A stretch of 64,000 nt of DNA from Bacteroidales bacterium (GTDB lineage: Bacteria > Bacteroidota > Bacteroidia > Bacteroidales > F082). The DNA is taken from contig JAFYJV010000018.1 in the NCBI GenBank assembly GCA_017537965.1, positions 62,001 through 126,000 of the forward strand, read 5' to 3'. Made by a program: the position numbers and the translations under genes. Below are positions 55,369 through 58,509 of the stretch, in pieces. Below the pieces are notes generated by a model. The model saw nothing but the letters and a program-made list of their open reading frames with translations, was not told the origin of the DNA and made no database searches. Position 1 is the first letter of the stretch; the number at the start of each line of letters is the position of its first letter.

Positions 55369-58300
55369 CTACCCAACCACGATATTCACAATCTTCTTCG
55401 GCACGTAGATGACCTTGCGGATCTGCTTGCCCTCGATCCATTTGGCGGACTCGGGAGCGGCCAGCACGGCGGCTTGCACCTCGTCGGCGGTCATGGTGAC
55501 GGGCAGTTCCATGTTGAAACGCATCTTGCCGTTGAAGCTGATAGGGTAGTTGAAGCTGTTCTCCACAGTCTTGCTCTCGTCATAGACAGGGAACGAAGCG
55601 TTGACCACCGAGGTGTCGTGACCCAGCAGGTGCCACAGTTCTTCGGCGATATGAGGAGCGTAAGGCGAGATCATCACGCACAAGGGCTCCAGAATCTCGC
55701 GTTTGTTGCACTTGAGGTCGTTGAGCTCGTTGACGCAGATCATGAAGGCAGAGACCACCGTGTTGAACGAGATGCTCTCGATGCCTTCTTCCTCTTTCTT
55801 GATGAGGGTGTGCAGGCTCTTCAACTCGGGTGCAGTGGCGGGCTCGTTGCTCACGTTGAACTCGTTGTTCTCGTTGTGGAACAGTCTCCAGAACTTGCGC
55901 ACGAATCGGAAGGTGCCTTCGATGCCTTGGGTGTCCCATGGCTTGGACTGCTCAAGCGGCCCGAGGAACATTTCATAGAGACGGAGCGTGTCGGCGCCGT
56001 ATTTCTCCACGAGGTCGTCGGGGTTCTGCACATTATATTTCGACTTCGACATCTTTTCGACTTCCGAGCCGCAGACAAAAATGTCGTTGCCGTCCTTGTC
56101 TTTCTCAAAAAGGAACTGGGCATCGTGCAAGTCATCGCGCCATTGGCGGAAAGCTTCCACGTCGAGCACGTCGTTGCGCACCATATTGATATCCACATGG
56201 ATGGGATCGCTGAATTCCTCACGTCCTTCGATGTTCTTAGAGATGAACAGAGGACCGCCGTGATAGGCCTCGCCTTCCACAAAGGTTGGGACATCCTTGC
56301 CAGCGATGAGATCCTTGATCTTCTGCTCGACTTTGTTGGTGCCGTTTATGTAGTCGTTCACCACATCGATAATCGGAACGAGAAGGAGCTTGTATCCTTT
56401 CGACGCAGCATATTCTTCCCAAGGTTCGGCTACCTTCTCGAGGGCTCCCATGCGGTTAATCTCGATGAGGATGCCTTTTTCAGGACAGAAGAAGTCGAAG
56501 CGACGGCGGCCGTCCTTGAAGTCCTTCTCGAACTTCACACCCAGCTTGTTGTCTTTGATATGTCGCCAAACGCCGTATTCGCAGAGTTTCTCCATGTTGG
56601 CGCGATAGGCGAAGCTGGAACGGCCTTGGATCATGCCTTGGTTGATCATCCGTTGGAAGGGCTCTTCCTTGCACGACAAACCGACGTCATAAAGGAACTT
56701 GCACCAGAAGCGGCTGTAGATCAAGTGGCCGGTAGCATGTTCTGCGCCGCCGATATAGAGATCGACGTTCTGCCAATAGTCGTTGGCCTCGCGGCTGAAA
56801 TATTCCTTATTGTTATGCGGGTCTTCGTAGCGGAAGTAATAGCCACTGGAACCGGCAAAGCCAGGCATGGTGTTGGTCTCGATGGGATAGCCCTCTTCGG
56901 TGACCCAGTTCTTGGCACGGGCCAAAGGCGGCTCACCCGTCTCAGTGGGCTTGTATTCGTTGATGGAAGGTAGCTCCAGAGGCAACTTTGATTCGTCCAT
57001 GGCGTAAGGCATGCCGTCCTTGTAGTAGATCGGGAAAGGCTCACCCCAGTAACGCTGGCGGCTGAAGATGGCATCGCGCAGGCGGTAGTTGGTCTTGCCG
57101 GTACCTACGCCGAGTATCTCAAGTTCTTCGATCATGCGCAGGATGGCTTTCTTGACTGGCAGTCCGTTGAGGAAGCCTGAGTTGACCAGTTCGCCATCCT
57201 TGGCGTCGAAGCTTTCTTCCCAGGTGGAGGGGTCGGTCGGCTCGGTGCCGGGTTTCTTCACCACTTGGATGATGGGCAGGTTGAAATGGCGTGCAAAGGC
57301 GAAGTCGCGGCTGTCGTGGGCAGGCACGGCCATGATGGCGCCTGTGCCGTAGCCCATCAGCACGTAGTCGGCAATCCAGATGGGCAGCTTGGCACCCGTG
57401 ATGGGGTTGATGCCGTAGGCACCCGTGAAGGCGCCGCTCACCTTGCGGACTTCGGCCATGCGCTCGCGTTCGCTGCGGTTCTTGGTGCGGGTGATGTATT
57501 CCTCCACCTCGGCGCAACGCGCCGAGGTGGTGATCTCGCTCACCAGCTCGTGTTCAGGTGCCAGCACCATGAAGGTCGTTCCGAACAAGGTGTCCGCACG
57601 GGTGGTAAACACCTCAAGGTCGATGTCCTTGCCATCGACTTTAAAGATGACGGAAGCACCCATCGACTTGCCGATCCAGTTGCGTTGCACATCTTTCACT
57701 GACTCGCTCCATTCGACCGTCTCAAGGCCTTCAAGCAGTCTGTCGGCGTAGGCGGTGATGCGGAGCAGCCATTGTTTCATCGACTTGCGGACCACGGGAT
57801 AGCCTCCACGCACCGAGAGGCCGTCGGCTACCTCGTCGTTGGCGAGCACCGTGCCCAGTTCGGGGCACCAGTTCACCATCGCCTCGGCCTGGTAGGCTAG
57901 GCGGTAATTCATCAGCACCTCTTGCTGTTCCTTCTCGCTCATGGCTTTCCACTCGGCAGCGGTAAAGTGCAGTGGCTTGCTCTCGGCCACATCGAGGCCT
58001 TCAGTGCCAGTGGCCCCAAATGCCTCCATCAGCTCGCTGATGGGACGGGCTTGCTTGGCTTGGTTGCAATAATAGGAGTTGAACAACTGCAAGAAGGTCC
58101 ATTGGGTCCACTTATAGTAGCCTGGCTCGCAGGTGCGCACCTCGCGGTCCCAGTCGTAGCAGAAGCCGATCTTGTCCATCTGCTCGCGGTAGTGGTTGAT
58201 GTTCTTCTCGGTCGTCACGGCGGGGTGGGTGCCTGTCTGGATGGCATATTGCTCGGCGGGCAGACCGTAAGCATCGTAGCCCATCGGGTGCAGCACGTTG

Positions 58301-58509
58301 AAGCCTTTCAGACGTTTGTATCTCGCATAGATGTCGGAGGCGATATAACCCAGCGGATGGCCCACATGCAGACCTGCGCCCGAAGGATACGGGAACATAT
58401 CCAAGACATAAAACTTAGGCTTGCCGTGGTCAATATCGACCTTATAGATTTTGTTGTCGTGCCAGTACTGCTGCCACTTTTTTTCGATCTCGGTAAAATT
58501 ATAATCCAT
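55369..58509 (-). CDS. leuS: Leucyl-tRNA synthetase with an inserted DUF559-like domain
   Basis: Charges tRNA-Leu. It has 1046 residues, against about 940 for typical Bacteroides LeuRS. HIGH motif [15 protein letters not shown] (near 40-54); editing domain with [25 protein letters not shown] motif [11 protein letters not shown] (near 810); C-terminal anticodon domain. Residues 637-752 are an extra block between [14 protein letters not shown] and [20 protein letters not shown]. It resembles DUF559, a Vsr-like nuclease fold: [33 protein letters not shown] (Asp672, Glu683), and [14 protein letters not shown]. The second acidic position is Asn685, and the usual DGxxH is absent. I start at [12 protein letters not shown], 29 bases after the -7 box. 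Confidence 0.95.

Follow-up and report, generated by a model that had tools for sequence, protein, structure and literature searches.

The essential leucyl-tRNA synthetase (LeuRS, encoded by leuS) of many gut Bacteroidales bears a domain that sequence comparison traces to DUF559, a family of DNA-cutting enzymes. The case discussed here lies in a window of 64,000 nucleotides (the whole stretch of DNA that was analysed) from a Bacteroidales genome, and the domain is predicted to sit within the leucine-specific (LS) domain of the synthetase. We consider it about an even bet that this is an old, domesticated DUF559-type domain that entered the LS domain once and now extends the contact between LeuRS and tRNA-Leu.

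The gene and the sites on which the argument turns are listed below; residue numbers refer to a protein of 1046 aa that starts from the ATG at 58509, the start listed for the open reading frame being an ATG 13 codons upstream.

55369..58509, minus strand: leuS, leucyl-tRNA synthetase of 1046 aa with the inserted domain (TIGR00396 leuS_bact, 940.5 bits against a cut-off of 548.4)
57598..57651, minus strand: CP1 loop before FTTR, residues 287-304, empty in the window; LeuS of other Bacteroidota can have an intact DUF559 domain here
56602..56628, minus strand: upstream LS-domain junction QGRSSFAYR, residues 628-636, common to insert-free LeuS
56254..56601, minus strand: extra block, residues 637-752, with no counterpart in insert-free LeuS
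56278..56595, minus strand: predicted DUF559-like PD-(D/E)XK domain, residues 639-744, its limits set by eye from the alignment (PF04480, E 0.0013)
56188..56250, minus strand: downstream LS-domain junction, LFISKN to DPIHVDI, residues 754-774, from alignment with insert-free LeuS
56041..56055, minus strand: KMSKS catalytic loop, residues 819-823

The window protein belongs with the bacterial LeuRS by its TIGR00396 score, its KMSKS motif and its Pfam families (PF13603, PF00133 and PF08264, editing and anticodon domains included), and it is the sole copy identified in its genome (G000), where a C-terminal query found one matching place. The span from QGR to KMSKS comprises 196 residues in the window as against 78-79 in 11 scarless insert-free LeuS, an excess of about 118. 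The first-pass annotation of this DNA had delimited the extra block correctly, and its account of the usual enzyme, in which GRSxFVYR is followed by about 20 residues before PIHVD, agrees with the 19 residues that precede the (P/A)LHVD motif in three insert-free proteins (L094, L100 and L103). Residue 630 of the window protein aligns to residue 587 of the leucine-tRNA ligase in PDB entry 7nua, which we take to be the Neisseria gonorrhoeae enzyme (NgLeuRS). The LS domain and KMSKS loop of NgLeuRS span residues 586-638 and are described as moving together, and the LS domain is termed tRNA-binding (PMC9424281). By alignment, the extra block is inserted where the LS domain begins, ahead of KMSKS.

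Several lines of comparison indicate that the block is a divergent DUF559 domain, Vsr-like and of the PD-(D/E)XK type, as had been proposed at first sight. Against the window block, the Pfam family PF04480 gives E 0.0013-0.0021, and the block alone scores 19.0 bits, just under the gathering cut-off of 20.6. Among 16 aligned members, the window included, the family was found in 13 at E up to 1 (best 7e-7). A search of 99 genomes of the genus found 17 LeuS inserts above the cut-off, the best of them at 27.7 bits (G086), and gave no PF04480 match at E 0.001 in the window's own genome. With a limit of E 0.01, a 25-row profile of the block (A4) retrieved a single solved sequence, that of the endonuclease-like protein 3hrl_A, at E 1.7e-9. 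Profile-profile comparison with hhalign gave 99.0% against 53 in-frame and 99.2% against 26 stand-alone DUF559 domains, its E-values being those of single comparisons with relatives that had been collected with a profile of the block. An assembly or binning artefact, or a likeness to DUF559 arising by chance, is extremely improbable: the window block alone just misses the Pfam cut-off, but several profile results (the PF04480 inserts of the genus, hhalign and 3hrl_A) agree on the family, and the insert recurs at the identical place in more than 100 genomes, which excludes the joining of two genes by misassembly that had been raised as a possible explanation. An intein was also considered, and no intein family occurs among the Pfam hits of the window LeuS at E up to 10.

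The suggestion that this architecture may be common in one lineage was borne out by surveys of increasing breadth. In the window's own family, the LS-site insert is present in 95 of 173 genomes, comprising 73 of the 99 in its own genus and 22 of 74 in six other genera (counted as matches at E 1e-25 or better that reach into the insert; G091 and G100 are cut by contig ends). A sample of the order yielded LS-site matches in 30 of 393 genomes, spread over 16 families, one of them (G380) truncated where its contig stops; the remaining matches, among those listed, were shorter and weaker, and those fetched were other DUF559 domains. LS-site matches outside the order came from 4 genomes of a single family (f180) in a class sample of 395 genomes, a few of them from the order, and a phylum sample of 198 genomes, which overlaps the earlier samples, contained an LS-site match in the window's own genome only. 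Among named sequences, those closest to the locus are for the most part Bacteroidales MAGs from ruminants and other animals, bacterium F082 among them. A contig filed under a Methanobrevibacter MAG (L036, NZ_JAFSNZ010000003.1) bears a Bacteroidales leuS about 89% identical to that of the window, which is probably a case of binning contamination.

What has become of the nuclease site bears directly on the role of the domain. The AExxLW helix and D-x10-E core of the family are represented in the window by E644, W648, D672 and E683, with Cys at the position of the Ala. The positions of interest, with counts from 82 distinct LS-site inserts in which the window's own genus is heavily represented, are:

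56578..56580, minus strand: E644, first acidic residue, in helix 1 (AExxLW); Glu in 81 of 82
56494..56496, minus strand: D672, Asp of the PD motif and presumed metal site; Asp in 80 of 82
56461..56463, minus strand: E683, Glu of the ExK or ExD motif; Glu in 80 of 82 and Asp in the other 2
56455..56457, minus strand: N685, where PD-(D/E)XK has Lys and free DUF559 has Asp; N in 39, K in 37, R in 3, S in 2 and E in 1 of 82

W648 is retained in all 82, and in the diverse 25-row alignment only E644, W648, D672, F673 and E683 reach a conservation of at least 0.9 inside the block, so that the acidic residues are among its best-conserved positions, above nearly all hydrophobic ones. The spacing of 11 between D672 and E683, the Asn at 685 and the missing DGxxH, all noted in the first-pass annotation, are correct for the window block, but Asn685 is not typical of the inserts overall, given the near-equal number with Lys. 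The Asp that free DUF559 domains have at this third site occurs in none of 40 LS inserts, as against 52 of the 53 in-frame rows and 25 of the 26 stand-alone ones. The ExDG..H signature is likewise absent from the LS insert; its Gly and His are present in all 53 in-frame rows, where RRQ, D..R and other marks are conserved at 0.9 or more, and ExDG is found in 25 of the 26 stand-alone rows. The LS insert thus appears to have lost the ExDG..H half of the nuclease signature while retaining the acidic core E644-D672-E683, and complete loss of the site was rejected as a description of it. The shift from ExD to ExK or ExN with the acidic core mostly kept looks more like reuse than simple decay.

Reduced or lost cleavage by the LS insert, as had been suggested for the window block, is plausible on these grounds. 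An alternative is a domain that, in the lineages with a D-E-K site at least, still functions as a metal-dependent nuclease and might trim mischarged or damaged tRNA or cut invading nucleic acid beside the synthetase. The D..E-x-K order, which was not seen in the free DUF559 rows compared, occurs in nearly half of the inserts (37 of 82); it fits an active nuclease equally well and counts against the tRNA-contact reading, and the high conservation of the Asp, the Glu and the helix-1 Glu points the same way. We nevertheless consider an active nuclease unlikely, for the window and 38 other inserts have Asn at 685, the inserts lack the His and the second Asp seen in free DUF559, three of them (L184, L186 and L187) no longer have a complete acidic site, and fusion to an essential synthetase should demand tight control of any such activity.

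The history of the domain fits an old acquisition by the synthetase. All 40 LS inserts in a domain tree (119 rows, 103 columns) form one clade apart from 79 other DUF559 rows with ultrafast bootstrap 100, with some bias possible since the relatives were picked by a profile of the insert; the split that joins this clade to the nearest other row has a support of 13, so that a stand-alone DUF559 gene, rather than an in-frame element, may also have been the source. Distances in the insert and in the LeuS body correlate (p-distances, r 0.76, 741 pairs), with the insert diverging about 1.8 times as much. Because the inserts form one clade and diverge in step with their hosts, repeated gain of the LS insert is disfavoured. 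The f180 inserts branch close to the base of the insert tree, and the LeuS bodies of f180 belong with a basal LeuS group, as would be expected of an old origin. In a tree of 63 LeuS bodies, in which several nodes are weak, a single gain at the root requires 12 losses and plain parsimony requires 10 changes, so parsimony by itself does not favour a single gain. Taken with the domain tree, the insert appears to have entered once, deep in the class, and to have been lost repeatedly.

Some of these losses have left traces. Three kinds of in-frame scar occur in LeuS of the window's own genus (the L092 type, the L090 type and L107), and both edges of the block can persist in them. Among L090, L092, L107 and their relatives there are at least three different deletions of the LS insert within one genus. 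In another protein, L101, identity to the window is 90-98% in most windows of the LeuS body (80% in one) and falls to 58% just after the LS site, and its LS segment looks to have been replaced from an insert-free leuS. Some exchange of inserts between lineages is also likely: the inserts of L169 and L170 group with those of L083 and L089 (support 94), but their LeuS bodies do not (body node support 47).

It is possible that the insert is a tolerated passenger, a decaying selfish sequence in a permissive surface loop that brings the host no benefit. The 12 losses that follow from a single gain at the root of the body tree indicate that it is dispensable, and the in-frame scars, the faster divergence of the insert and the loss of nuclease residues in some lineages are all consistent with such a fate. 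The insert is, however, under purifying selection, with a median dN/dS of 0.086 as compared with 0.049 for the remainder of the gene (from 109 of the 276 pairs within the genus, those with an insert dS outside 0.1-1.5 or saturated being omitted). This selection, together with the invariant W648, the near-invariant acidic residues and the presence of the insert in 16 families, makes the passenger explanation doubtful.

Where the domain came from is suggested by DUF559 domains elsewhere in the same bacteria. The order survey turned up DUF559 domains inside long open frames, and many of those fetched are intact and in frame within other proteins. Pfam confirmed the in-frame domain, with E-values of 4e-30 to 3e-36, in all eight of the proteins submitted, namely LeuS (at the CP1 site, L166), ValS, IleS, acetyl-CoA synthetase, MetH, RecG, TsaD and a DNA methylase. 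Further hosts, named by their motifs, are presumably HsdR, HsdM, TsaB, a sugar epimerase and a GNAT protein with the domain at its C-terminus. The in-frame copies are as follows, the names of hosts other than synthetases being in part presumed from motifs.

LeuS, CP1 site: L147, L151-L153, L156-L160, L164, L166-L168, L197, L199, L206, L208
LeuS, an additional site before ELTTMPGW, the host presumed from its motifs: L214, L215
ValS: L150, L154
IleS: L162, L165
MetH: L198, L203, L207, L218
Acs: L219, L220
RecG: L233, L244
TsaD: L240
Remaining in-frame hosts: L239, L241, L245, L257, L223, L189, L190

Three of these proteins (L166-L168), LeuS of 1165-1201 aa, contain the LS-site domain together with a second DUF559 domain, intact, at the CP1 site, and comparison of L166 with L177 of the same genus finds the element in the CP1 loop of one and a short loop in the other. 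The CP1 site of LeuS adjoins FTTRPDT and the ValS site adjoins ATTRPET, each insert lying directly before its motif. The two sites look equivalent, and the similar motifs that follow them may reflect a target preference. Outside the synthetases, in-frame DUF559 domains are also often found close ahead of a conserved motif.

The edges of the in-frame inserts often read P-S-P-x-G-E-G or L-P-x-G-E-D-L-G-G, which are translations of palindromes of the type CCTCCCC..GGGGAGG. Inverted repeats that link both flanks with a score of at least 11 were found in 20 of 52 other in-frame inserts and at 1 of 78 control positions, but in 0 of 26 LS inserts; hairpins of at least 6 on both sides occur in 30 of 52, 6 of 78 and 2 of 26, respectively. 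By these counts, a good part of the in-frame inserts are without a clear repeat. The window site has only two weak, imperfect inverted-repeat pairs, which lie away from the two edges. No intein family appears among the Pfam hits (E up to 1e-5) of the eight proteins with an in-frame domain. Stand-alone DUF559 copies include three within-genome pairs that are 89-96% identical in DNA, as against at most 73% among the in-frame copies compared. Recent mobility in the window genome was discounted, there being no DUF559 match in it besides LeuS. At four places in the window's own genus (G094:C25:94338, G108:C12:241084, G098:C94:12951 and G102:C6:100866), frames of 1823-1829 aa weakly match the C-terminal half of DUF559.

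The palindromic flanks, the CP1 loop that is filled in L166 and short in L177, and the similar stand-alone copies suggest that these in-frame domains are mobile elements, and related domains of this kind are the likely source of the LS insert. More broadly, Bacteroidota may harbour elements in which a stop-free DUF559 frame lies between palindromic ends and enters conserved genes in frame, among them LeuS (two sites), ValS, IleS, MetH, Acs, RecG and TsaD; the host protein would be made with the nuclease inside, and the LS insert would be a descendant that has become immobile and fixed. We hold this proposal to be roughly as probable as it is improbable. A literature search of openly licensed papers, by titles and the openings of abstracts, returned among the matches listed none that concerned LeuRS with a DUF559 or other nuclease domain, or DUF559 elements lying in frame within genes, which is weak evidence that none exists.

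How might such a domain serve LeuRS? In the model that we favour, a DUF559-type domain would have entered the LS domain once, most likely from the in-frame pool of the phylum; it has no palindromes at its flanks, and would have shed the ExDG..H half of its signature while the acidic core was retained. The LS domain of LeuRS is described as not strictly required yet important in tRNA binding, and as distinguishing tRNA-Leu isoacceptors (PMC5059758). Since the fold is one that binds nucleic acid and it has been placed in a tRNA-binding domain, it would most simply extend the tRNA contact, and a precedent exists in the Vsr-like protein FASTKD4, whose ligand is a poly(A) tail (PMC11879112). In this model the LS domain, travelling with the KMSKS loop, would touch tRNA-Leu, and the added domain would enlarge that surface; its former nucleic-acid face, perhaps with a metal ion, could hold tRNA-Leu during aminoacylation or during hand-over to editing, with little or no cleavage. 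The near-neutral charge of the window domain (net charge +1, pI 7.7), which is not strongly basic, and the repeated losses speak against a tRNA contact.

That charge, and the conservation of a Trp and a Phe beside the acidic residues, would also suit a structural or docking module that lends stability to the LS domain or interacts with another protein, without contact to nucleic acid. We regard this as quite unlikely, for structural reuse alone leaves unexplained the conservation of three separated acidic residues above that of nearly all hydrophobic positions in the block.

If extended tRNA-Leu contact by a domesticated domain is the correct explanation, a DNA-nuclease domain has turned into a fixed part of a translation enzyme, and the stages of that change are still visible in living bacteria as palindrome-ended in-frame domains, the domesticated form, copies with a broken site and deletion scars. 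It would further reveal a route by which synthetases acquire domains and a kind of selfish element that hides within conserved proteins without splicing. With the LS insert, nature has provided LeuRS with an enlarged LS domain that is relevant to tRNA binding and editing.

Comparison with known systems helps to place the insert. It has in common with DUF559 (PF04480) and the solved relative 3hrl the AExxLW helix, the D-x10-E core and the C-terminal pattern, but differs in being nested in a synthetase, in having Lys or Asn at the third site, and in its want of the ExDG..H, RRQ and D..R marks. The RAP domain of FASTK proteins such as FASTKD4 is described as having a Vsr-like cavity, positively charged, for RNA binding (PMC11879112), although FASTKD4 is a human mitochondrial protein outside any synthetase and the likeness is one of analogy only. 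Rickettsia palindromic elements are palindromic DNA in frame in host ORFs (PMC10969869), and the in-frame DUF559 inserts of Bacteroidota are comparable to them. The Rickettsia elements, however, measure about 150 bp and encode a short conserved peptide, whereas the Bacteroidota inserts hold a whole nuclease domain and the LS insert is free of palindromes. A further parallel concerns mobility, although no intein family lies around the in-frame DUF559 domains scanned and any homing by them would be hypothetical. I-Bth0305I is a nuclease that belongs to a mobile element. It is cited as a Vsr-related homing endonuclease (PMC11879112), and is Vsr-like as the DUF559 elements are. Another comparison is with the LS domain of bacterial LeuRS itself, which occupies the same position in the host before KMSKS, and to which the LS segment of the window adds a second domain of about 110 residues.
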